Shown in pieces: positions 2,860 to 18,906 of a DNA stretch of 26,518 nt; positions within the stretch are counted from its first letter, which is position 1; every line of letters begins with the position of its first letter. The stretch is from a virus, in IMG/VR virus record IMGVR_UViG_3300031216_000059, positions 1 to 26,518 of that record; one strand, 5' to 3'. The notes below the pieces were generated by a model. It was given only the letters and a program-made list of their open reading frames with translations, was not told the origin of the DNA and ran no database searches. The translations under genes and the position numbers were made by a program.

Positions 2860-2891
2860 TTTATGGTTATTTATGGATATAATTAAATTGT

Positions 2892-2914
2892 AACCCCTGA
2901 GAATAGGTTTTTTT
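2892..2914 (+). terminator. Possible weak terminator after the lysis and small-gene block
   Basis: AACC at 2892-2895 can pair with GGTT at 2906-2909, followed by an unbroken T run to 2914. The stem is only about 4 bp, so this is weak. A larger alternative pairing, GTAACC at 2890-2895 with GGTTAC at 2932-2937, would enclose the same T run. Confidence 0.3.
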
Positions 2915-2949
2915 GGTTAAATACTTAAGGAGGTTACGTTCAAATAGAT

Positions 2950-2978
2950 TTGACTTTGATATAACTATCTGATATACT
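2950..2978 (+). promoter_or_regulatory. Promoter of a short RNA unit
   Basis: TTGACT at 2950-2955 and TATACT at 2973-2978, 17-base spacer. The 13 bases AGATTTGACTTTG around its -35 (2946-2958) recur exactly at the promoter at 3222, so the two may be controlled alike. The predicted start is near 2985. Confidence 0.65.
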
Positions 2979-2984
2979 TTTATT

Positions 2985-3055
2985 AGAAATCTCTCTCACG
3001 AAATTTTCATTCCAACCTTCGGGCTCAATTAACCTTGCAATTTGCAGGGTTTTTT
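2985..3055 (+). ncRNA. Candidate ~70-nt small RNA or attenuated leader
   Basis: A transcript from the promoter at 2950 would meet a strong intrinsic terminator at 3032-3055 after about 70 nt, without any reading frame that looks coding. It contains CCTTCGGG, able to form a tiny UUCG-capped hairpin, near the middle. It may be an independent small RNA or the 5' attenuator for what follows. No known RNA family recognised. Confidence 0.45.
3032..3055 (+). terminator. Intrinsic terminator
   Basis: ACCTTGCA at 3032-3039 pairs with TGCAGGGT at 3043-3050 (8 bp including one G-T, 3-nt loop), followed by a run of T to 3055. This is a textbook rho-independent terminator on the + strand. Confidence 0.8.
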
Positions 3056-3061
3056 AATGTT

Positions 3062-3215
3062 CACCTATGTGAAAAATTTACTATAGGTGGGAATCTATCT
3101 AGATAGGCTACAGCCATCTTAATTGATTTAGAATTGACACTTTATTAAGTAAAATACTGGACGTTTTGATGTTCAAAATGATTCCTGACTGCATACCATA
3201 CAGGATTGGAATATA
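3062..3215. other. Cluster of hairpins and palindromes (possible origin or operator region)
   Basis: This non-coding stretch has four dyads in about 150 bases: CACCTAT (3062-3068) with ATAGGTG (3083-3089); the perfect palindrome CTATCTAGATAG (3095-3106); CGTTTTGA (3162-3169) with TCAAAATG (3173-3180, one G-T); and TCCTG (about 3183-3187) with CAGGA (about 3201-3205). A TTGACA at 3134 lacks a convincing -10. The position just before the helicase-loader and helicase genes fits a replication origin or a repressor-operator region; both are inference. Confidence 0.35.
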
Positions 3216-3221
3216 AAAGAT

Positions 3222-3250
3222 TTGACTTTGGTTTCAAGGTGTGCTACACT
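3222..3250 (+). promoter_or_regulatory. Promoter of the structured RNA
   Basis: TTGACT at 3222-3227 and TACACT at 3245-3250, 17-base spacer, predicted start near 3257. The -35 context AGATTTGACTTTG is identical to that of the promoter at 2950. It directly precedes the structured RNA and would also reach the replication genes. Confidence 0.65.
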
Positions 3251-3256
3251 TGGTTT

Positions 3257-3485
3257 CGAGTTGTTCTTTTTGATTTCATTACATAGTGGCGGGCAGTGAA
3301 CCGTTAATATAAATATTAGGGGAACTTTCTCGGGATTCTGCCAGAGAGCCTACTCTGTATCTTACATAAAAAAGATGTTGCGAAAGCTATAAGTAAGACC
3401 CAAAGGCAGGAAGATAAAACGAGGCGTCAGTACACGCCTACCCTAATACTGAAAGTCAAACCTTTCCTATGTAATGAAATCAAAG
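3257..3485 (+). ncRNA. Structured RNA closed by an 18-bp helix (new candidate class)
   Basis: The two ends, 3269-3286 and 3467-3484, are perfect reverse complements over 18 bases (TTTGATTTCATTACATAG and its partner), enclosing 180 nt. Inside are further helices: GGCAG 3292-3296 with CTGCC 3338-3342; TAATA 3305-3309 with TATTA 3314-3318; AGAG 3343-3346 with CTCT 3353-3356; TCTTAC 3360-3365 with GTAAGA 3393-3398, capped by a GC-GAAA-GC tetraloop at 3380-3387; AGGCGT 3422-3427 with ACGCCT 3434-3439; and GAAAG 3451-3455 with CTTTC 3462-3466. Loop CAGTA (3428-3432) can pair with TACTG (3447-3451) as a pseudoknot. Features of group I/II introns, RNase P and tmRNA were not recognised. It precedes the replication genes and may be a leader or a stand-alone RNA. 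Confidence 0.75.
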
Positions 3486-3494
3486 ATAATAAAC

Positions 3495-3716: not shown

Positions 3717-4281
3717 AAAACAATTAGACAGATTAACACCAAAAGACAGACTTTGGTTTTTTGACTCTATTTTTTTACTTGCATCAGGGGGAAATGTGGA
3801 GCTTTTAGATACAAATGCGGGAGATATTTTAGAGCTAGTTTGGAGGGATAGTTTGCAGATGGCAAAGAAAAATGTTAAATTTAACTCAAATGCGATAGGT
3901 ATCATAGTTGCGGGTTACCCGCACACAGAAGTGAAAGGAAGTGAAGGGAAGGGAAGTGAAAAGAAAACTATGTGTGAGAAAGACTTAGAGAGTTTTGATT
4001 TATTTAGAAAAAAATATTTAGGAACTAAGAACGGAAACGAAACAGAGTTTAATAATTTTAAGAAAAAACATAAAGACTGGAAAACAATTCTACCTCTATT
4101 AGAATCAATAATTACAAAACAGATTAAATCTCGCGAACAATTAAAACTTAGAAAAGAGTTCATTCCTAGTTGGAAAAATCTATCTACTTGGATTAATCAG
4201 AGATGTTGGGAGGAAGAGATAACAATAGTTGAGGCACCAAAGAGAATGTCAGTATTTGATAAAGCAAAACAATATGAATAA
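3685..4281 (+). CDS. Replication protein, helicase-loader-like (DUF6291-like N-terminus)
   Basis: The 198-residue protein has two parts. Residues 1-60 (RIPLRYKKQLDRLTPKDRLW onward) resemble the DUF6291-type N-terminus of phage replication proteins. Residues about 105-185 (FDLFRKKYLG, FKKKHKDWKTILPLL, SWKNLSTWINQRCWEEE) match the conserved C-terminal domain of Bacteroidota-phage primosome or helicase-loader proteins. The linker carries a low-complexity GSEGKGSEKK stretch from a GTGAAGG-type DNA repeat. It directly precedes, and overlaps by eight bases, a DnaB-like helicase, the usual loader-helicase order. The loader role is inferred from that context. Confidence 0.65.
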   Translation: METIRIPLRYKKQLDRLTPKDRLWFFDSIFLLASGGNVELLDTNAGDILELVWRDSLQMAKKNVKFNSNAIGIIVAGYPHTEVKGSEGKGSEKKTMCEKDLESFDLFRKKYLGTKNGNETEFNNFKKKHKDWKTILPLLESIITKQIKSREQLKLRKEFIPSWKNLSTWINQRCWEEEITIVEAPKRMSVFDKAKQYE

Positions 4282-5395
4282 TAAAAAAATAACGCTTACG
4301 GAATTTAAGAAGGGTATTGAGACAAATCAGATATTACTATTCGCTGACCATCAAATAGATTTTGAATTAAAAGCAGATATATATAAATATTTCAAGGGTT
4401 TGATAGAAAAAAGATATACAGGGAACGGATTTTCGCTATTTGATGCTGTAGGAACTTTAGACGAATTAATGAACGAGAGAGCGAAGACTTATAGGGATTT
4501 ATGGGAATATCACTATGTAAACCTAAGAGACTTGCCAGAGGGATTTTTCGAAGATTCAAAAGATGTTATTAAAAATCTTTGTGAGGACTTAGACTCATCA
4601 AAAGAATCGTTTGTTAAATATCCATACAAAGAGCTGAATAGTGTTTTTGGAGGAATCTTTGACACAACGCTATTAGTTATTGGAGCTGATACAGGTTGTG
4701 GAAAATCAGAGCTATCTGGTGAAATCGCTTTAAATTGCATGAAGCAAGGCAAGAAAGTAGCTTACTTTGATTTTGAAAATGATAAAGGAGATTTCATTTT
4801 ACGGAACGCTTGCCGACAAATCGGGATTAAAACTGGGAAATCTTACAGCATACTAAAAGCTATGAAAGATGGAGTTAGTGATGAATTATATAATGCAATG
4901 GCAGAGATTGGCGATATTTGTGATGAAAAACTATTAATGTTTAATAATAAAAAAATCCCTAATATTTATGAATTTAGTAACTTTTTAAATCACATCAAAG
5001 AGTGGGGTGTTGACATTGTTTTCGTTGACCACATCCATTATTTCAACTTCGATAGACCAGAGGCGCAGCACCAACAAATTACGACTCTTATGGAAAAATT
5101 AAGAGAATTAGGGAAGAATGATGGAATACCAGTGGTGGTTGCAAGTCATTTAAAACAAAGACCAAACGGAAAAATGCCGACAAATTACGACTTATTTGGT
5201 TCATCTAATATTGCAAAAATAGCAACTGACGTAATTCTTTTATCTCGCGGAACTAGCGATAATAATGAGGATTATACTAATTTCTCTATAACAAAGAATC
5301 GTAAAGGTAGCTTTATTGGTAATAGCAAGGCGACATTTGACATAGTGAAACGAAATTTCCACTTTCTTTCACCAGATGAACAAAGCGGATTTTAA
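4274..5395 (+). CDS. Replicative DNA helicase, DnaB-like ATPase
   Basis: The 373-residue protein has a RecA-fold ATPase core: Walker A GADTGCGKSE at about 137-146, Walker B VDIVFVDHIHYF at about 245-256, the sensor-like ASHLKQRPNG, and a C-terminal ITKNRKG segment expected to provide the arginine finger region. The N-terminal ~120 residues are helical and may correspond to the DnaB N-terminal domain; no primase zinc or TOPRIM domain is present. It should unwind DNA 5'-3' at the phage fork. Start 4274 is chosen over the upstream ATG 4229 because it gives a short overlap with the loader gene. Confidence 0.85.
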   Translation: MNNKKITLTEFKKGIETNQILLFADHQIDFELKADIYKYFKGLIEKRYTGNGFSLFDAVGTLDELMNERAKTYRDLWEYHYVNLRDLPEGFFEDSKDVIKNLCEDLDSSKESFVKYPYKELNSVFGGIFDTTLLVIGADTGCGKSELSGEIALNCMKQGKKVAYFDFENDKGDFILRNACRQIGIKTGKSYSILKAMKDGVSDELYNAMAEIGDICDEKLLMFNNKKIPNIYEFSNFLNHIKEWGVDIVFVDHIHYFNFDRPEAQHQQITTLMEKLRELGKNDGIPVVVASHLKQRPNGKMPTNYDLFGSSNIAKIATDVILLSRGTSDNNEDYTNFSITKNRKGSFIGNSKATFDIVKRNFHFLSPDEQSGF

Positions 5396-5411
5396 TTAAT
5401 AATAAATAAAA

Positions 5412-5684
5412 ATGATTTATGAAAAAAACGACATCAGAAACTTAATATTTGGATTGTGTAATAACTATGCATCTATGAATAAAGAGGATATAGATAGTAT
5501 TACGAAATTTGCAAATTGGTGTGACAAATACGTAGACGACGAAAGAATTATTAAGAATGAAATAAAAGAGGGGGAACCTATCGGAAATAGATTAAAATAT
5601 CACAAAGGATTGTTCTTACGATGTAATGATAAGTTGGAGCACACAAATAACACTTGTTTATGTAAGCATAAAAAACATATTTAA
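5412..5684 (+). CDS. Hypothetical Cys/His-rich protein
   Basis: A 90-residue protein following the helicase after 16 bases. The N-terminal two thirds are mixed charged helix (MIYEKNDIRNLIFGLCNNYA). The C-terminus has Cys and His residues in LRCNDKLEHTNNTCLCKHKK, which could hold a zinc ion. No family recognised. It is the last gene before a promoter, so it probably belongs to the replication transcript. Confidence 0.6.
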   Translation: MIYEKNDIRNLIFGLCNNYASMNKEDIDSITKFANWCDKYVDDERIIKNEIKEGEPIGNRLKYHKGLFLRCNDKLEHTNNTCLCKHKKHI

Positions 5685-5686
5685 TA

Positions 5687-5715
5687 TTGACAAATAACAC
5701 GCAATAAGCTACACT
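5687..5715 (+). promoter_or_regulatory. Promoter for the split gene 5744
   Basis: Perfect -35 TTGACA at 5687-5692 and -10 TACACT at 5710-5715, 17-base spacer. Start near 5722; the leader carries AACCAAAAATC before ATG 5744. Confidence 0.7.
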
Positions 5716-5743
5716 TGATATCGATTATTAACCAAAAATCAAA

Positions 5744-5970
5744 ATGATTTACAAACTACATAAAAACGTATTCATCGAAAACGACCCTAATAACTGGGTT
5801 GTGAAAGAGTCATACATTAGTAATAAAACAAAAAAACAGAGGAAAAAGTTATTGGATACTATCCAAGTCTAGAGGCATCATATCGCGGATATTTTAGAGA
5901 GTATTCTTTTGTAGCAAAAAGTCATAAAGAATTAGAAGAATTATTGGCTAATATAGAGCGACTTAGGTAA
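5744..5970 (+). CDS. DUF5405-like small protein, split by a -1 frameshift
   Basis: The zero frame (5744-5872) gives 42 residues starting MIYKLHKNVFIENDPNNWVV and stops at TAG. The -1 frame continues as TEEKVIGYYPSLEASYRGYF and on to TAA at 5968-5970; 'iGYYpsLeaa...' is the hallmark of a common small phage protein family (DUF5405-like). The frames join at seven A residues (5830-5836), read A-AAA-AAA, a correct slippery heptamer for -1 frameshifting; fusion gives 75 residues, a normal length. A TTGGAT-ACT-ATCCAA hairpin lies 15 bases downstream. Programmed frameshift, mutation and sequencing error in the homopolymer remain possible. Cellular role unknown. Confidence 0.65.
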
Positions 5971-6046
5971 TGAGTGGGTAGATAGTACCTAAAACAAGCT
6001 AAAACGTCTGTAACCGCCTAAAGACTATTAAATTTAACCAAATACA

Positions 6047-6307
6047 ATGAGTAAAGATAAGATAATGGAGCTAATGATGAGAAGTTTCTCATGTGGAGTA
6101 TCACAGGGATTGATTTATGCAAATGATGAAAAGGAAAATAGGATTAATTATGAGTCAATGCTGGGAGTTGCATTTGACAGAGAAACTGCTACACCTTTGC
6201 AGTTAGGAAATATAATAGAGCCACAACCAAAAAGCAAGAAATGGATTGCTGCGCATAAAAAGGAAATTGCCGAGTTTTACGAATTACTACTTAGGGAATT
6301 AAAATAA
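6047..6307 (+). CDS. Hypothetical protein
   Basis: An 86-residue protein, mostly helical (MSKDKIMELMMRSFSCGVSQ at the start; AAHKKEIAEFYELLLRELK at the end). The leader AACCAAATACA lies immediately before the ATG, the same one used by the next gene. The sequence resembles small phage proteins of unknown role often found near DNA metabolism genes, but no family could be named. There is no promoter directly upstream, so it should be read from the promoter at 5687. Confidence 0.65.
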   Translation: MSKDKIMELMMRSFSCGVSQGLIYANDEKENRINYESMLGVAFDRETATPLQLGNIIEPQPKSKKWIAAHKKEIAEFYELLLRELK

Positions 6308-6320
6308 TTAACCAAATACA

Positions 6321-6731
6321 ATGAGATACTATAACCATAAAATAACCTACACGCTAAACGGAGAAGAAAAAGTTATTAATTACTGGAATTCTATAGAAAT
6401 GAATGACCAGATTGCCGCGATTGTTGTTTTTACTTCATACTTCGGACATAAGTACAAAGAAGATAGATTAAAAGCGGAAAATGAGTTTGCAGAAAATGGA
6501 AAATCAAAGTTTCAGTTGAAAACAAAGACTTTTGAATTTGATAAGCTTAGATTTGAGGCTATTGGAATAGAGAATAAAACTAAATCAGCTATAAAGAATT
6601 TATACGCAAAACAAGAAAGATTATTAAAGAAAAACAACGTCAGGAGGTTCGTGAAAGAAATTACTGAGAATTCCGCGAGATTCAATAGAGGTATGACTGG
6701 AAAAACTACATTATCGCGTCATAATAATTAA
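6321..6731 (+). CDS. Hypothetical basic protein
   Basis: A 136-residue protein with a beta-like N-terminus (YYNHKITYTLNGEEKVINYW) and a Lys/Arg-rich helical C-terminus (NLYAKQERLLKKNNVRRFVK), which suggests nucleic-acid contact. It shares the AACCAAATACA leader with its upstream neighbour. No catalytic motif or family was recognised. Confidence 0.65.
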   Translation: MRYYNHKITYTLNGEEKVINYWNSIEMNDQIAAIVVFTSYFGHKYKEDRLKAENEFAENGKSKFQLKTKTFEFDKLRFEAIGIENKTKSAIKNLYAKQERLLKKNNVRRFVKEITENSARFNRGMTGKTTLSRHNN

Positions 6732-6733
6732 AA

Positions 6734-6859
6734 ATGAGAAAACTAATTATAACAAAGTTATCAAAAAAACAGCTAACAATGCTGAAATGGAGTAATGAAA
6801 AACTCGTGATGAAAATCATAAACTTACAAAATGAAGTTCTTAGAGCAAATAAAAAATGA
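6734..6859 (+). CDS. Small basic hypothetical protein
   Basis: A 41-residue helical protein rich in Lys and Leu (MRKLIITKLSKKQLTMLKWS at the start), possibly a short coiled coil. It starts two bases after the preceding stop and its TGA overlaps the methyltransferase ATG (ATGA), so it may serve to couple translation into the methyltransferase. Function unknown. Confidence 0.5.
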   Translation: MRKLIITKLSKKQLTMLKWSNEKLVMKIINLQNEVLRANKK

Positions 6860-7503
6860 ATATAACAAATGAATGCAATATGAAGCTAATGGCTCGCTAT
6901 CCAGATAATTATTTTGATTTGGCTTTGATTGACCCTCCTTATGGGATAAGAGAGGATGGAAAAAAAAATCATTCTAGAGGCAAGAAAGCTAAAGCAAAAA
7001 AGTATACCCCAAAAAATTGGGATAAATCAGCTCCAAATAAAGAATATTTCGCGGAATTAAAAAGAGTTTCTAAAAATCAGATAATTTGGGGTGCAAATCA
7101 TTTTATTGAAAATATACCCGAAGCAAACAGTAGCTGTTGGATTGTTTGGGATAAAGTTAATGGGAAGACAGATTTTGCGGATTGCGAAATGGCTTATTCT
7201 AGCTTTAAAACAGCGGTTAGAAAATTTGTCTTTACTTGGCACGGAATGATTCAAGGAGATATGAAAAATAAAGAAATAAGAATCCACCCAACACAAAAAC
7301 CTGTAAAGCTTTACGAATGGCTTCTAATGAATTACGCAAAAGAGGGAGATAAAATATTAGATACTCATTTAGGCTCTGGAAGTATAGCTTTAGCCTGTCA
7401 TAACCTAGGATTTGATTTAACAGCGTGTGAACTAGATAAAGAGTATTATGACGGTGCAATGGCACGATTAAAGGTATATACAGACCAATTAACTATATTT
7501 TAA
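6856..7503 (+). CDS. DNA N6-adenine or N4-cytosine methyltransferase, beta class
   Basis: The 215-residue protein has catalytic motif IV DPPYG at 26-30, preceded by DLALI, and the AdoMet-binding motif I (LDTHLGSGSIALAC) near 167-180. With IV before I, the order is that of beta-class amino-methyltransferases. The middle contains IIWGANHF and SCWIVWDK, typical of phage site-specific methylases, and IHPTQKP precedes motif I as usual. No matching restriction enzyme is adjacent, so it is probably an orphan methylase protecting phage DNA from host restriction or marking it for regulation. Confidence 0.88.
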   Translation: MNITNECNMKLMARYPDNYFDLALIDPPYGIREDGKKNHSRGKKAKAKKYTPKNWDKSAPNKEYFAELKRVSKNQIIWGANHFIENIPEANSSCWIVWDKVNGKTDFADCEMAYSSFKTAVRKFVFTWHGMIQGDMKNKEIRIHPTQKPVKLYEWLLMNYAKEGDKILDTHLGSGSIALACHNLGFDLTACELDKEYYDGAMARLKVYTDQLTIF

Positions 7504-7534
7504 AACATATAATAAAAAGAAACAGCAGAAAGTG

Positions 7535-7563
7535 TTGACATGGTGATAAAACTTCTATATACT
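7535..7563 (+). promoter_or_regulatory. Promoter, GTGTTGACA type
   Basis: TTGACA at 7535-7540 preceded by GTG, and TATACT at 7558-7563, 17-base spacer. Start near 7570; the leader holds AACCAAAAAAATC before ATG 7591. Confidence 0.7.
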
Positions 7564-7590
7564 AGATAACGATTACTAACCAAAAAAATC

Positions 7591-7728
7591 ATGAATTGCC
7601 AATACTGTAAAGAACCGCTAGACGACTATGAGTTTGAAACGTGTGAAGTATGTGAAGAAGAAAACGAGGAAATAGTAAACGAGGAAGCGGTAGCGAGAGA
7701 TGATTACGAAAAAAGCCAATATATTTAA
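7591..7728 (+). CDS. Small acidic zinc-ribbon protein
   Basis: A 45-residue protein with CQYC at 3-6 and CEVC at 18-21, a classic rubredoxin-like zinc knuckle, followed by a very acidic helix. It has its own promoter and AACC leader. Small zinc-ribbon proteins in phages often act as protein-protein or nucleic-acid adaptors; the strongly negative tail makes it a candidate DNA mimic or host-factor binder, which is inference. Its TAA stop is part of the next gene's leader (TTTAACC). Confidence 0.65.
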   Translation: MNCQYCKEPLDDYEFETCEVCEEENEEIVNEEAVARDDYEKSQYI

Positions 7729-7738
7729 CCAAATAAAA

Positions 7739-7864
7739 ATGAGTTTCGAAAAATGGTATCAGACACAAGAAAAAAGCCTTGAGAAATTATTTAGCACTAG
7801 TCAGATTGTATTCATAAAAACATTACTAGAATATTCGTGGGTAGTAGGACAATCAGAAAAATAA
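7739..7864 (+). CDS. Small hypothetical protein
   Basis: A 41-residue, probably helical protein starting MSFEKWYQTQEKSLEKLFST. It has a full AACCAAATAAAA leader, identical to that of the next gene. No family recognised. Confidence 0.55.
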   Translation: MSFEKWYQTQEKSLEKLFSTSQIVFIKTLLEYSWVVGQSEK

Positions 7865-7886
7865 ATTAAAATTTAACCAAATAAAA

Positions 7887-9600: not shown

Positions 9601-9858
9601 ATGAATTATAAAGAAGTATATCGGCGATTTTTTGATTTTACTGATGGTGAATATGTACCATGCGAGGTTTGTGCAAAACCTGCATCAGATATTCATCATA
9701 TTGTGTTTAGAAGCAGAAAAAAAGATGACACGATAGGCAATCTAATAGGATTGTGCAGGAGTTGCCACAATAAAGCTCACTTTAAAGAAACCCCTTACCT
9801 ACGGGAAAAGGAATTGTTTGATATACATTTAAAACATATACAAAAACATAACTCATAA
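9601..9858 (+). CDS. HNH endonuclease domain protein
   Basis: The 85-residue protein has the Cys-paired HNH fold: CEVC at 21-24, DIHHIVFRS at 30-38 with the catalytic His, NLIGLCRSCHNKAH at 47-60 with the second Cys pair (52, 55), the HNH Asn (57) and final His (60). HNH nickases of this size occur as terminase-associated nucleases, mobile endonucleases or recombination helpers; here it is far from the terminase, so a free-standing or recombination role is more likely. A 15-codon frame (9564-9611, with a CKKC) overlaps its start and may couple it to the protease gene. Confidence 0.8.
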   Translation: MNYKEVYRRFFDFTDGEYVPCEVCAKPASDIHHIVFRSRKKDDTIGNLIGLCRSCHNKAHFKETPYLREKELFDIHLKHIQKHNS

Positions 9859-14151: not shown

Positions 14152-14546
14152 ATAAGATAATTCTACCAATGCCACCAAGTGTAAATGCTTTATATGCGAC
14201 CAACTTCAAGACAGGTCGGAGGTTCAAATCCAAGAAATACATTGAATGGGTGCAATTAGCAAAAACCTATAAGAATTCAACCTTTACAATTATCCCAGAT
14301 GAGAAGGTACTAGAATTATCAATGAAGTTTTACTCAAAGTGGTACAACCTCAATGACACGATAAAGAAAAAAGATTTATCAAATTATTTCAAAGCATTAG
14401 AAGATTATCTAGGGGAGATTATAAAGGGATTCGATGACAGTATGATATTCAGATATAAACAGATAGATAAAATACATAGTGATAGGGAAGAAGTAGAGAT
14501 AAAATTCAAAGAGGTAACACGAAAATCTTTTGACAAAACTAAATAA
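14148..14546 (+). CDS. rusA: RusA-family Holliday junction resolvase
   Basis: The 132-residue protein has the RusA layout: PMPPSVNALYA near the start, GRRFKSKKYIEW at 23-34, and the acidic active site KKKDLSNYFKALEDYL with Asp76, Asn79, Lys82 and Asp86, then FDDSMI at 95-100 with further acidic residues. RusA cuts Holliday junctions symmetrically as a dimer; in phages it resolves recombination and replication intermediates before packaging. Length (RusA is about 120 residues) fits. The next promoter overlaps its last codons. Confidence 0.85.
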   Translation: MNKIILPMPPSVNALYATNFKTGRRFKSKKYIEWVQLAKTYKNSTFTIIPDEKVLELSMKFYSKWYNLNDTIKKKDLSNYFKALEDYLGEIIKGFDDSMIFRYKQIDKIHSDREEVEIKFKEVTRKSFDKTK

Positions 14547-14585: not shown

Positions 14586-15089
14586 ATGAAACAAATTACA
14601 ATCGGCGACATGACAATCACGGCAGAACAACTAAGAAAAGCGATTAAAGATAATCCCGAAGTTCTAGAGGAAAAGAAAGACTTACCTAGATATTTCTTTC
14701 CGAAGGAGGGGAAAATCTATTTTCACATGGGGGAGGATAGAGATATATGTGAGGATGAATTCCGAAATAAAACCACTTGGAGGTATGAAGTTTCTATGGG
14801 GGTTCATGAAACAGAAAAACAAGTAGTAAAAGAGGCTGCACGACAAAAAGCTAAGGTAGCAATTTGGAAATACGCACAAGAGAATGACTTGATTTTGGAT
14901 TGTGATTGGGGTGATGTACATCAAGAGAAACACTATCCTTGTTATGACCATAATTACAAGGAAATAATGATAAATTGTAGCATTATGTGGCAAAGTCAAG
15001 CTGAATTACCATACACAGATAAAGAAAATTGCCACAAACTAATAGAAGCACAAAGAGAAAACATACTAATATATTTTAACCAACAATAA
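14586..15089 (+). CDS. Conserved hypothetical phage protein
   Basis: A 167-residue protein starting MKQITIGDMTITAEQLRKAI. The middle (GKIYFHMGEDRDIC, then VSMGVHETEKQVVKEAARQK) resembles a widespread phage family with a 'fyyi...g.i......F.teeeA...a' pattern, where a beta module is followed by an alpha-helix; no function is established. First gene of a transcript that also includes the SSB-like gene, so a DNA-metabolism role is possible. Its last codons supply the leader AACCAACAATAAC of the next gene. Confidence 0.65.
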   Translation: MKQITIGDMTITAEQLRKAIKDNPEVLEEKKDLPRYFFPKEGKIYFHMGEDRDICEDEFRNKTTWRYEVSMGVHETEKQVVKEAARQKAKVAIWKYAQENDLILDCDWGDVHQEKHYPCYDHNYKEIMINCSIMWQSQAELPYTDKENCHKLIEAQRENILIYFNQQ

Positions 15090-15360: not shown

Positions 15361-16007
15361 TGTCTAAAAAAAGACTAATAACTACTGGAGAGGAATTTAG
15401 CAGGCTTACTATTATAAAAGAAAGCAGTCCCGCCATATCTATTAATGGTAATAAAAAAAGAAGGGTTTTATGTGAGTGTTCTTGTGGGACTATAAAAACA
15501 GTTGATATGTCTCACTTGGCTAATGGTAGAATTAAATCTTGTGGTTGTCTAAAAAAAGAAGAAGCAAGCGAGAGGTTTACTAAGCATAATATGAAAAAAA
15601 GTAGAGAATATTATACTTGGCAGAATATGAAGTCTCGTTGTCTAAATAAGAATAATAAAAACTATAATTTTTATGGGGGTCGCGGAATAACTATTTGCGA
15701 TAAATGGCTAACGTTTGAGGGGTTTTATAAAGACATGGGAGATAGACCTGAAAACAAAACCTTAGATAGAGTAGATGGGGGTAAGGGATATTTAAAAAAT
15801 AACTGTAGATGGGCAACTAATAAGGAGCAACAAAACAATAAAATAAATAATGTTTTTCTAGAATATAATGGTAAAAGAAAGACTGTTGCACAATGGGCTG
15901 AATTTGTTGGCATTAATTCAAGCACCTTATATCACAGATTTTATTTAGGTTGGAATATAAAAGATGCATTAACAAAGGATTCATATATAGGAAGAAATAA
16001 ACATTAA
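15360..16007 (+). CDS. AP2/HNH-type homing endonuclease-like protein
   Basis: The 215-residue protein has an N-terminal zinc module (CECSCG at 38-43 with SCGCLKK at 60-66), a central nuclease-like domain (YGGRGITICDKWLTFEGFYK at 105-124, DMGDRPENKTLDRVDGG at 125-141, NNCRWATNKEQQNN at 147-160) and a C-terminal DNA-reading segment (VAQWAEFVGINSSTLYHRFY at 176-195, then GWNIKDAL). This order is common in free-standing phage endonucleases that spread by cutting a relative's DNA. It is probably a mobile passenger inserted between the SSB-like gene and the non-coding region. Confidence 0.8.
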   Translation: MSKKRLITTGEEFSRLTIIKESSPAISINGNKKRRVLCECSCGTIKTVDMSHLANGRIKSCGCLKKEEASERFTKHNMKKSREYYTWQNMKSRCLNKNNKNYNFYGGRGITICDKWLTFEGFYKDMGDRPENKTLDRVDGGKGYLKNNCRWATNKEQQNNKINNVFLEYNGKRKTVAQWAEFVGINSSTLYHRFYLGWNIKDALTKDSYIGRNKH

Positions 16008-16009
16008 GT

Positions 16010-16026
16010 GTTCTTTCAGCCTTCAT
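16010..16026 (+). repeat. Direct repeat GTTCTTTCAGCCTTCAT, copy 1
   Basis: A 17-base sequence identical to 16371-16387, 361 bases apart. Each copy forms the 5' arm of a separate RNA fold. It starts two bases after the endonuclease stop codon. Confidence 0.85.
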
Positions 16027-16089
16027 TGTCTCGTTAACAATGGAGTTATTATTATTGCTCTTACTTACTTCGGTAGTGAGGGCTGAGGG
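16013..16089 (+). ncRNA. Three-way-junction RNA element
   Basis: The outer helix pairs CTTTCAGCC (16013-16021) with GGCTGAGGG (16081-16089), 9 bp with two G-T. Inside are TTCATTGT (16022-16029) with ACAATGGA (16037-16044), and CTTACTTAC (16060-16068) with GTAGTGAG (16073-16080), 8 bp with one bulged T, capped by the very stable C(TTCG)G loop. No run of T follows, so it is not an ordinary terminator. It may protect the 3' end of the upstream mRNA, act as a processing site, or be part of the packaging region. Confidence 0.5.
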
Positions 16090-16117
16090 AATAAGGAATT
16101 AACTAACAAACTATAAC

Positions 16118-16204
16118 ATGACTAAGTAACAAACACTCGATGAGGTAATAGCAGAATATGAGGAAGAGAAGAGAGCTAATAATAAAGTTATAAAAAGAGT
16201 TTGA
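16118..16204 (+). pseudogene. Small frame broken by an in-frame TAA
   Basis: ATG ACT AAG is followed by TAA and then a well-formed frame (QTLDEVIAEYEEEKRANNKV, then IKRV and TGA). An intact version would be 28 residues. No other start is visible. The continuous charged helix after the stop suggests a recent nonsense mutation or a chance frame. The final TGA lies inside the next -35 box. Confidence 0.3.
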
Positions 16205-16229
16205 CACGATGTAAATAAATAAATATAAT
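16201..16229 (+). promoter_or_regulatory. Perfect consensus promoter of a small RNA
   Basis: TTGACA at 16201-16206, 17-base spacer, TATAAT at 16224-16229: the only fully consensus promoter in the window, expected to be very strong. It drives a short unit ending at the terminator at 16322, not a protein gene. Confidence 0.8.
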
Positions 16230-16235
16230 TAACTT

Positions 16236-16324
16236 GGCTTTTGATTTTACTAGGGATAGATTAAATCGAATATCATATAAAAACTGTCTTAGCTGTCTAT
16301 CCCCTCGGGCTAGGCAGTTTTTAT
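16236..16324 (+). ncRNA. Candidate ~90-nt small RNA with a knotted terminator
   Basis: The transcript from the consensus promoter ends at an intrinsic terminator after about 90 nt and has no coding frame. GGGATAGA (16253-16260) is perfectly complementary to TCTATCCC (16296-16303), which lies in the loop of the terminator hairpin. The RNA can therefore form a pseudoknot around the terminator or switch between two folds. Abundant expression is expected. No known family recognised; possible roles are regulation of host or phage mRNAs, an attenuator for the terminase operon, or a packaging RNA. Confidence 0.6.
16279..16322 (+). terminator. Strong intrinsic terminator of the small RNA
   Basis: AAAAACTGTCT-T-AGC (16279-16293) pairs with GCTAGGCAGTTTTT (16309-16322), about 14 bp with one bulged T, ending in five T. 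The A-rich 5' arm makes it partly bidirectional. Confidence 0.8.
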
Positions 16325-16370
16325 TATCTCGCTTATAAGTTAGGTGTAAAACAATTATAGCACTAACTTT

Positions 16371-16387
16371 GTTCTTTCAGCCTTCAT
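16371..16387 (+). repeat. Direct repeat GTTCTTTCAGCCTTCAT, copy 2
   Basis: Exact second copy of 16010-16026. The two copies bracket the broken small frame and the small RNA unit. Confidence 0.85.
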
Positions 16388-16574
16388 GCGTTAAATTGGG
16401 TAGACCAGACAACTGGGAATCCTTGTATAATAAATAATTGATAAGTTAATTATGTTGTGGAAGTATGTAGTCAGCAACATAGGTAAATAATTAACTGTAT
16501 AGCACCATAGAGAGGTTTAAATCTCTCCTCCTAATGTATTAGCCTTTTAAAATAATACATCCTATAAAACAGCA

Positions 16575-16599
16575 TTTAAACTCAAAGCTCAGGGAATGG
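16575..16599 (+). repeat. Degenerate iteron, copy 1
   Basis: TTTAAAC-TCAAAGCT then CAGGGAATGG. It matches 16679-16703 in the order TTTAAA, AAA, GCT and GGGAATGG. Sites of this kind upstream of a small terminase gene could be its DNA-binding sites, which is inference. Confidence 0.4.
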
Positions 16600-16678
16600 A
16601 ACTCACAGGGAAAGTCGCATGAAAGGTTAAAAAAATCAATTAAATTTGTATAGCTCCTTAAGCCTATTTCAAAAAGAC

Positions 16679-16703
16679 TTTAAATCTAAATGCTTGGGAA
16701 TGG
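16679..16703 (+). repeat. Degenerate iteron, copy 2
   Basis: TTTAAATCTAAATGCTTGGG then AATGG, second copy of the pattern at 16575, about 104 bases downstream. Confidence 0.4.
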
Positions 16704-16720
16704 CGATAAAAAGAAGAAGC

Positions 16721-16748
16721 TTTACAAAAAGAATTAATTAACTATAAT
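16721..16748 (+). promoter_or_regulatory. Promoter for the terminase operon
   Basis: TTTACA at 16721-16726 and TATAAT at 16743-16748, 16-base spacer. The predicted start is at about 16755-16756, at the ATG of the first gene, so this transcript could be leaderless. Confidence 0.55.
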
Positions 16749-16755
16749 AAGAGGG

Positions 16756-16863
16756 ATGAAAGTAGAGTTTAAAGTAAGCAAGGTTGTTGTTGATAATAAT
16801 AAGACAGAAGTAGGAGATATACTAGAGTTTGAGATTGACGATAATTTAATTAAAACAAAATGA
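16756..16863 (+). CDS. Small hypothetical protein
   Basis: A 35-residue protein with a beta-strand pattern (MKVEFKVSKVVVDNNKTEVG, then DILEFEIDDN). Its TGA overlaps the next ATG (ATGA). It is the first gene of the terminase transcript. No family recognised. Confidence 0.5.
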   Translation: MKVEFKVSKVVVDNNKTEVGDILEFEIDDNLIKTK

Positions 16864-17012
16864 GTAAAACTTTGCACACAGATTATAGTTATGGGGTAGT
16901 AGATGAAATATCTATAGAAGAAACTAATGATAATTCTTATGTAGATGTATTACAGTATCTTGAAACAGAGGAAGGTATGACAGCTATTTATGATTTAATT
17001 AAAAGAAAATGA
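16860..17012 (+). CDS. Small acidic hypothetical protein
   Basis: A 50-residue acidic protein (SYGVVDEISIEETNDNSYVD in its first half; a helical end TAIYDLIKRK). ATGA overlaps at both ends tie it to the terminase genes. No family recognised. Confidence 0.55.
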   Translation: MSKTLHTDYSYGVVDEISIEETNDNSYVDVLQYLETEEGMTAIYDLIKRK

Positions 17013-17437
17013 GAAAAGATGCTAAAAAGAACTTAAAAGATGTAGCAAAAATTGCTATAAAGAACCCTGACATAAAACCATCAGAAGTGGTTGAGCAAAC
17101 AGGGTTAAGTCGTGCGAGTGCCTATAATAAGTTAGACGAACTTAGACAGGGCGGTGTTATAGAGAAGTCTAGTGATGTCATAAGGATAGCCAAGATTGAT
17201 TTAGAGCATTTAGAACAGATACAGGGTATAGAGGGAGACCATATAGCTGAATACGCTAACAAGGCAAATAAAGGCGAATTCTTTAAACCAAGTGATTTAG
17301 AAAGTCTAAACAGAATAGGTGAGAGAAAACAAAAGAGATACTCTATGCTTATGGGAGAAAATACAGATAAGAAGGGAGCGGAAAAGGTTAATCCAGAATT
17401 AAAGATAGCAGTAGATAAATTACTAGGCTCAATGTAA
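17009..17437 (+). CDS. Terminase small subunit-like protein
   Basis: The 142-residue protein has a winged-helix or helix-turn-helix at about 12-55 (AIKNPDIKPSEVVEQTGLSR, ASAYNKLDELRQGGVIEKS). The C-terminal part is charged and helical, suited to oligomerisation and contact with the large subunit. It sits directly before, and overlaps by one base, the large terminase gene, which is the main basis for the call. It would recognise the packaging site, plausibly in the non-coding region just upstream. A transcription regulator is the alternative. Confidence 0.7.
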   Translation: MRKDAKKNLKDVAKIAIKNPDIKPSEVVEQTGLSRASAYNKLDELRQGGVIEKSSDVIRIAKIDLEHLEQIQGIEGDHIAEYANKANKGEFFKPSDLESLNRIGERKQKRYSMLMGENTDKKGAEKVNPELKIAVDKLLGSM

Positions 17438-18906
17438 TGGATAATAAAAAAGAATTAAGACGTATTTTAATAGAAGGAACTAAAGAGGAGAAAATAGCCT
17501 TGTTTGGTTTTAATAAAGATAATACAACTAAGGAGATATACAAGAAATTTAGATTATTCTCTACTAACTACCCTAGGTTCTTTAAGCATAATCCTGCACC
17601 GTTCCATGAGGGAATGATGATGAATTATATTAAATCATATAGAGGGGAGCTGAATTACTTAAACATAGGATTTCGTGGGTGTGCTAAAACAACACTACTT
17701 AAATTATTTGTTGCTTTTGTATTACTGAATGATTTAGACCATAGTAGAAAGTTTTTGAAAGTATTAACTAAGGACGGTGCAAACTCTAAACAAGTTGTAA
17801 CAGATGTATATAATCTAATGGTTGAAGTTCAGCCTATTTATGGAGATGTGTTTGATAATGAAACTAAGAAGAAAAGAGAGGAAACAATGGGGTCATTTAC
17901 TATGAGTTGTGGAGTAAAGCTTTTATCTAGTACAGTAGGTAAAACACAACGTGGACAAGTTCAAGATGCTTATCGTCCTGACTGGATATGGTTTGATGAT
18001 ATCGAGGATAGAGAGAGTGCAGACAGTGATACAAAGACTAGTAACATTATAAGTAAGGTTGATGAAGCGGTGCAAGGTTTATCTGTAGATGGTGGGTATG
18101 TATGTACAGCTAACTACATAACTGATTTGGGAGTGATTCAAAATATGATAAGCAAGAATGTTGTTGTAAGCATAACGCCATTACTAAATGAGAACGAAGA
18201 ACCAACGTGGGATTACTTCACAAAAGAGAAATGTACTAAAATAAGATTAGATGCGGAAGACTGGTATGGTGAATATATGTGCGACCCTGTTAGTGGTGCG
18301 GATAGAGAGTTTAAAAGAGAATACTTTAACTCTATTAAGATGAGCGAGGTATTTAATAAGAAATACAGATTGTTTCTTACAATTGATTCAGCGGTAAAAA
18401 AAGACGAAGGAGCGGACTTTTCAGGGTTTTGTTTAAACTTTGTTAGCCAAGACAACAAGTGGCACTTTAAAGCGTGGAGAGAGAAGCTAAATACAGGTGA
18501 ATTGATTGATAAGATATTTGAGTTATGGTCTTATTGGAGTCCCAAAGGCTTAGAGGTTGTAGGATTAGAGGAGACAATGGCGGTTGTTGCTATAATGCCA
18601 TTCTTAGAAGAAGAAATGAGAAAAAGAAATGTATACATGCCTATAGTTATGCTAAAGCATGGTGGCACAAAGAAAGAGACTAGAATACGAGGATTAATTC
18701 CAAGGTATACTTCTCATTCAGTGTTTCATATAGAAGGTGAGTGTGATGACTTAGAGAATGAACTATTAAGATTTCCTATCAGTAATAATGATGACTGTTC
18801 TGATGCCACAGCGTATCAAGACCAAGTAGCTAGACCACCACATGAAGAAGTGGTTGAACATTATGCACCTGTAGATAATTTTGATAGATTTGGTGTGAGT
18901 TTGTAG
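17437..18906 (+). CDS. terL: Terminase large subunit
   Basis: The 489-residue protein is the packaging motor ATPase and nuclease. Walker A GFRGCAKTT is at 78-86 and Walker B DWIWFDDIED at about 181-190. The RNase H-like nuclease domain starts near 312 (FLTIDSAVKKDEGADFSGFC), with later acidic residues in VVGLEE and in NNDDCSDA near 455-465 completing the metal site. Length is normal. It forms a TAATG junction with the small subunit gene, which supports translational coupling. Confidence 0.92.
   Translation: MDNKKELRRILIEGTKEEKIALFGFNKDNTTKEIYKKFRLFSTNYPRFFKHNPAPFHEGMMMNYIKSYRGELNYLNIGFRGCAKTTLLKLFVAFVLLNDLDHSRKFLKVLTKDGANSKQVVTDVYNLMVEVQPIYGDVFDNETKKKREETMGSFTMSCGVKLLSSTVGKTQRGQVQDAYRPDWIWFDDIEDRESADSDTKTSNIISKVDEAVQGLSVDGGYVCTANYITDLGVIQNMISKNVVVSITPLLNENEEPTWDYFTKEKCTKIRLDAEDWYGEYMCDPVSGADREFKREYFNSIKMSEVFNKKYRLFLTIDSAVKKDEGADFSGFCLNFVSQDNKWHFKAWREKLNTGELIDKIFELWSYWSPKGLEVVGLEETMAVVAIMPFLEEEMRKRNVYMPIVMLKHGGTKKETRIRGLIPRYTSHSVFHIEGECDDLENELLRFPISNNDDCSDATAYQDQVARPPHEEVVEHYAPVDNFDRFGVSL

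Follow-up and report, generated by a model that had tools for sequence, protein, structure and literature searches.

The window analysed here, a 26,518-base IMG/VR virus record of an uncultured phage, carries a perfect-consensus promoter, a predicted short untranslated RNA and a strong intrinsic terminator as one compact unit, located in the large gap before the terminase genes. Our tentatively favoured reading is that this unit controls the passage from early to late genes as the leader of the late operon, with start-and-stop control that follows the logic of lambda PR'-tR'. The features on which this reading is built are collected in Table 1.

Table 1. Features of the promoter-RNA-terminator unit and gene landmarks of the window
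Feature	Position	Strand	Place or remark	Basis
Endolysin	1372			
Replication-type gene	3685			
DnaB	4229			
NinB-like gene, weak match	11645		Upstream of unit	Protein family search
Exonuclease	12015		Upstream of unit	Protein family search
RusA	14148		Upstream of unit	Protein family search
Orphan 167-aa ORF	14586..15089	+	Between RusA and HNH; own TTGACA-17-TACAAT at 14530	
89-aa ORF			Upstream of unit, between 167-aa ORF and HNH	
HNH endonuclease	ends 16007		Upstream of unit	
TTGACA-17-TATAAT sigma70-type promoter	16201..16229	+	12/12 consensus	Sequence, promoter scan, shuffles
Predicted short untranslated RNA	16236..16325	+	Ends predicted from promoter and terminator	Sequence, fold, ORF check
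Weak leader hairpin	16240..16270	+	8-bp A/U-rich stem; 15-nt loop containing GGGATAGA	Predicted fold
GGGATAGA	16253..16260	+	Exact complement of 16296-16303	Sequence, shuffles
Intrinsic terminator hairpin H1	16277..16324	+	A-tract before, T-tract after	Predicted fold
Alternative shorter terminator hairpin H2	16292..16318	+	Shares H1 3' arm; sequesters TCTATCCC	Predicted fold
TCTATCCC	16296..16303	+	In H1 loop	Sequence, shuffles
Second promoter-like site TTTACA-16-TATAAT	16721..16748	+	Directly 5' of first downstream ORF	Promoter scan
35-aa ORF	16756..16863	+	First downstream ORF	
50-aa ORF			Downstream, after 35-aa ORF, before TerS	
Probable small terminase subunit (TerS)	17009..17437	+	Position before TerL	Weak HTH matches, position
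Large terminase subunit (TerL)	17437..18906	+		phrog_38, E 3e-43

The promoter is composed of TTGACA (16201-16206), a 17-nt spacer, and TATAAT (16224-16229). It is the sole 12/12 copy on either strand (one on the plus strand and none on the minus strand), against a mean of 0.03 per window expected for both strands in 200 dinucleotide shuffles; the preliminary description had called it the strongest promoter in the window. The predicted transcription start is at about 16236. Sites of the form TTGAC-N18-TANNHT occur eight times on the plus strand, where 0.65 are expected, and once on the minus strand. Seven of the eight are in intergenic gaps, and the remaining site, at 14530, starts within the 3' end of a gene that stops at 14546. 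The phage thus uses sigma70-type promoters, among which the one at 16201 is the best match to the consensus. Judged from the promoter consensus alone, the short RNA would be highly expressed. A Bacteroidota-type promoter, considered owing to an exonuclease gene in common with Flavobacterium phages, was dropped because the promoters of the window fit TTGAC-17/18-TANNNT.

The predicted 90-nt RNA folds into two separate hairpins with an energy of -24.0 kcal/mol and a z score of -2.66. The terminator hairpin H1 pairs 16277-16289 and 16291-16294 with 16308-16324, which gives 17 pairs, one bulged base, a 13-nt loop, and -17.9 kcal/mol; the stem is therefore not the 14 bp given in the preliminary description. 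The simple terminator scan, whose loop limit is 8 nt, missed H1. The alternative hairpin H2 has an energy of -13.7 kcal/mol, and the stem of the leader hairpin pairs 16240-16247 with 16263-16270. No coding sequence was found in the RNA, since the open frame across it has no ATG and continues past the terminator, in agreement with the earlier statement that the promoter has no protein gene. A possible resemblance of the leader to positions 249-289 of the window (alignment score 29) was left aside.

When a coupled unit is defined as a promoter of at least 10/12 followed by a terminator within 200 nt, the window holds two such units on the plus strand and none on the minus strand, against 0.05 per strand expected from 60 shuffles. 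One is the 16201 unit, and the other starts at 2950 and has its terminator at 3031-3051. A compact promoter-RNA-terminator unit, as proposed in the preliminary description, is thus well above chance. The further proposal of an independent small RNA (sRNA) is possible, with neither a homologue nor a standout target in its favour, and a late-operon leader is at least as natural, given the early/late position and the similar arrangement in a terminase relative (L014, below).

The exact 8-bp complementarity between GGGATAGA and TCTATCCC that was noted earlier is confirmed in the sequence. Complements of at least 8 occurred in 53 of 5000 shuffles (~1%) of the 40-nt leader and 15-nt loop, and in 9 of 20000 shuffles of the two 15-nt loops alone, the loop borders being taken from the predicted fold. 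The same leader-loop geometry gave at least 8 at 19 of 8810 places on the plus strand of the window and at 22 of 8810 on the minus strand (in steps of 3 bases and with the site itself included). The match therefore stands out, though not overwhelmingly so, and the preliminary description could have picked on any feature. Since GGGATAGA sits in the loop of the weak leader hairpin, the match is one of loop to loop.

Both segments are outside the arms of H1 and overlap with H2 (16292-16318). Because the segments do not overlap with the H1 arms, their pairing alone would not block termination. Of the two possibilities raised in the preliminary description, a pseudoknot or loop-loop contact is compatible with this geometry, whereas the usual terminator/antiterminator switch is not supported. 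The minimum-energy fold depends on the RNA end: it is a 9-bp long-range helix for the ends tried from 16303 to 16312, H2 at 16316 and 16320, and H1 at 16325. The succession from the long-range helix to H2 and then to H1 as the RNA grows is a plausible folding path in these models, and not a demonstrated switch. With a linker of about six bases, it is doubtful that both hairpins and the loop contact would form together in one molecule.

Nearly all long genes of the window are on the plus strand. The unit lies within a 748-nt gap (16008-16755) that separates the RusA/HNH end of the early genes from the terminase genes, all on the plus strand, and 430 nt lie between the terminator and the first downstream ORF. 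The gap is noncoding with the exception of a possible broken frame at 16118-16204, in which ATG ACT AAG TAA precedes 24 open codons, closed by a TGA in overlap with the promoter -35; an early stop may have disrupted a small gene here. On either side of the RNA unit there is an exact 18-base direct repeat, TGTTCTTTCAGCCTTCAT, within 16009-16092 and at 16370-16387. A long hairpin is predicted between the first copy and 16072-16092 (-33.7 kcal/mol for 16007-16094), and the second can pair with 16616-16634. A search for TGTTCTTTCAGCCTTCAT found one contig, which is unrelated.

The other large gap of the window, 2860-3473, looks like a late/early border, as placed by the endolysin, replication-type, and DnaB genes, and both promoter-terminator units of the window thus stand at module borders. 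The unit in this gap has the promoter TTGACT-17-TATACT and an RNA of ~70 nt, and 2985-3180 folds with a z score of -3.66. A common origin of the 16201 unit and this gap was rejected, with alignment scores inside the shuffle range. In the same region, the predicted leader of a promoter at 3222 folds at -67.8 kcal/mol (3257-3490, z -4.78). This fold is closed by a perfect 18-base inverted repeat (3269-3286 with 3467-3484) that contains the ATG of the ORF at 3474. The 3257-3490 leader has no Rfam match at E up to 5, and could serve as a structured 5' UTR in whose predicted fold the start codon is hidden.

In the late-operon leader reading, the promoter would fire constitutively and most transcripts would end near 16325 to yield the short RNA. 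The late genes would be reached by polymerase read-through, by means of either a phage protein or an altered leader fold. Pairing of the leader loop with the terminator loop would tune the read-through by keeping the growing RNA in the 9-bp helix until the 3' arm is transcribed; alternatively, it would form a pseudoknot that stabilises the completed hairpin. Once released, the RNA may act in trans as well, and leader and sRNA roles could coexist, as in StxS. The promoter and its coupled terminator, being far above chance, support the leader reading. The order of the genes, with RusA and HNH upstream and with TerS and TerL following on the same strand, supports it too, as does the position of the 2950/3031-3051 unit in another large module-border gap, before replication genes.

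A known precedent, which also favours this reading, is the late promoter region of lambdoid phages. According to PMC6606751 and PMC4604602, Q acts at the late promoter, where it needs a -10-like pause element and a Q-binding element, and lets polymerase pass the terminator just downstream of that promoter. The PR'-tR' regions of lambda and 21 share with the present unit a strong promoter at the early/late border, an untranslated short leader, a close intrinsic terminator, and late genes that follow this terminator in the same orientation. Here, the strong promoter lies upstream of TerS and TerL, and the intrinsic terminator is within ~200 nt of the start. In lambda, the lysis genes come first after PR'-tR', whereas here the terminase genes come next. 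In further contrast to the lambdoid regions, no Q is recognised, there is no convincing pause element, and a second promoter-like site is present at 16721.

The ORFs scanned gave no family match and no Q-like protein was recognised among them; Q proteins are diverse. In the initial transcribed region, the hexamers closest to a -10-like pause element were GATTTT (3/6) at +8 and TAGATT (4/6) at +22. Between -35 and -10, where lambdoid late promoters have Q-binding repeats, the spacer contains AAATAAATAAA, a low-complexity repeat that is not convincing as a binding element. The orphan 167-aa ORF is a candidate antiterminator by position only. Its AlphaFold model is unusable (pLDDT 39.6), and protein scans of viral contigs found no relatives of it or of TerS.

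A TerL profile search of viral contigs gave 108 relatives, and 80 of them were retained. TerL identity is highest, at 68-71%, for L003, L004, and L010, and the sequence 5' of the TerL match is just 364 bases in L003 and 519 in L010. The promoter-terminator unit is absent before the terminase genes of L004 and L005. A gap of at least 250 nt within 3 kb upstream of TerL was present in 21 of 64 loci examined, and 18 of these gaps were scanned (L029, L040, and L084 were left out). A strong promoter with a close terminator was found in one, L014, whose TerL is 34% identical to that of the window. L014 has TTGACT-17-TATAAT at 1154, a ~120-nt leader with a z score of -4.8, a terminator at 1273-1302, a 136-aa ORF with its ATG at 1322, and TerL at 1722, and the terminator ends 20 nt before the ORF that precedes TerL. 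This similar order of promoter, terminated leader, and terminase in a distant relative lends the leader reading further support.

Promoter-terminator units are not enriched near TerL in 79 of the 80 loci (L081 was left out as a copy of L009): on the plus strand, four entries from three distinct phages fall in 143 kb upstream and 13 entries in 655 kb elsewhere, and eight entries are on the minus strand. Given this lack of enrichment, L014 is one supporting case and not a trend. The absence of the unit from L004 and L005, the missing TerL enrichment over the 79 loci, the single case in 18 gaps, and the 430 nt from terminator to ORF all count against the leader reading, as do the lack of a recognised Q-like protein and of a convincing pause element. 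Moreover, the terminase genes could be transcribed from the promoter-like site at 16721 with no need for read-through, which speaks against strict dependence on it.

Several structured elements were seen in these loci. In L014, the 430 noncoding nt that precede the promoter-leader unit (721-1150) fold at -126.1 kcal/mol with a z score of -5.7, and their best Rfam match is Phe_leader, under the gathering score (37.8 vs 55 bits). In L038, the 2.7 kb ahead of TerL (5301-7869) contain a tmRNA (128.8 bits) together with four tRNAs, and a promoter-terminator unit of ~84 nt follows TerL (TTGACAACAGGTTGAATACCTGATACAAT, 9601-9720). This unit is also found in L040 and L045, with a single-base difference from L038 in the stem of the terminator. 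L066 has two strong promoters, at 4272 and ~10392, each with a similar terminator within ~40 nt (GCCGCAGAGCATC.. and GCCGGTGAGCATC..). The sole TerL match among genome contigs was on a contig binned with a Pacearchaeota archaeon, which is not accepted as the host.

Relatives of the RNA itself were sought in several ways. Rfam gave no match at gathering in the whole window, and two chance-level matches for 15900-16900 at E up to 10, namely RsaD (18.8 bits) and IsrR (12.8 bits). RsaD, a Staphylococcus aureus sRNA (RF01819), is the best Rfam match across the unit (16199-16322, same strand); its score against a gathering score of 50 and its E value of 1.1 are at chance level, and this identity was rejected. 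In 83 of the 84 loci (L001, which is the window itself, was left out), blastn and nhmmer found chance-level pieces only. Phage and plasmid records gave short pieces only, of which AT-rich stretches from promoter regions scored best. For 18 loci the full records were searched as well and gave no convincing match, the best (E 2.3e-4, in G009) being a 41-base piece at 16711-16756, outside the RNA. Among viral contigs, the pattern TATAAT..GGGATAGA..TCTATCCC occurred in 10 contigs of four unrelated groups, and was not accepted as a sign of relatedness; the L093 occurrence coincides with a terminator stem. A looser pattern gave seven contigs, none of them related, and an 18-mer of the loop region gave 0 matches. 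The architecture is already known from other phages, and the RNA found here in an uncultured phage is an orphan example of it.

The main rival, which we consider somewhat unlikely, is that the unit encodes an independent trans-acting phage sRNA with its own promoter and terminator, which would pair with host or phage mRNAs; the C-rich loop of the terminator or the A/U-rich leader would probably make the contact. The unit is free-standing and gene-less, and with a promoter-like site at 16721 directly before the downstream ORFs it need not serve them. Phage sRNAs with trans targets are known (PMC12197685), and they include StxS, a terminated late-leader RNA (PMC7873438). According to PMC7873438 and PMC12197685, StxS is processed from the RNA that runs from PR' to tR' and has become a regulator. 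The present RNA, like StxS of Stx phages (PMC7873438), is a short RNA bounded by a putative late promoter and its terminator; the likeness is in layout alone, and a sequence relation is not claimed. However, no homologue of the RNA was found in the 83 loci, the phage and plasmid records, or the pattern scans of viral contigs, and no target stands out among the 51 start regions of the window. The target prediction proposed in the preliminary description thus yielded nothing in its phage part: in a duplex scan that covered the phage window only, and in which two starts (16117 and 16755) were set one base early, the best energy of -17.9 (loop) was no better than that of arbitrary window sites (-18.4).

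An improbable explanation is that of a border element, in which the hairpin merely ends early transcripts, the promoter is incidental or host-interfering, and the RNA is a functionless by-product. The hairpin is placed at the end of the early genes, has an A-tract and a T-tract on both sides, and can also form on the minus strand (-13.6 kcal/mol). On the other hand, there is little for a minus-strand terminator to stop because the nearby long genes are all on the plus strand. A border element also fits poorly with a perfect promoter, a 12/12 site being rare (0.03 expected), and leaves the match between leader and terminator loop unexplained.

The boldest explanation, and a highly improbable one, is a packaging-associated, self-assembling RNA, whose complementary loops would join copies head to tail into multimers as in phi29 pRNA and which would work with the adjacent terminase, with the logic of pRNA but unrelated to it in sequence and fold. 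Like pRNA, whose multimers form by such loop-loop pairing (PMC7357161), this is a small phage RNA with two mutually complementary loops, and it is encoded shortly before terminase genes; the two predicted 15-nt loops share an exact 8-nt match, reached in only 9 of 20000 shuffled loop pairs. In contrast to pRNA, the match is of 8 nt rather than 4 nt and the fold has no three-way junction; the pRNA covariance model gave no Rfam match at gathering in the window and none at E up to 10 in 15900-16900, the terminase is of the TerS/TerL type (a TerS-like gene precedes TerL, which matches phrog_38) and a phi29-type packaging ATPase is absent, neither L004 nor L005 shows such an RNA ahead of its terminase genes, the stem of the leader hairpin is weak, and one of the loops is part of the terminator. 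If the loops do pair between molecules, the RNA would add a further kind of phage RNA that assembles itself.

At present, the unit is a single orphan element with a sound architecture and a putative function. If the leader reading is true, it would extend promoter-proximal termination as an early/late switch to an uncultured phage group without a recognised Q, and the site would mark where to seek the antiterminator of this phage.
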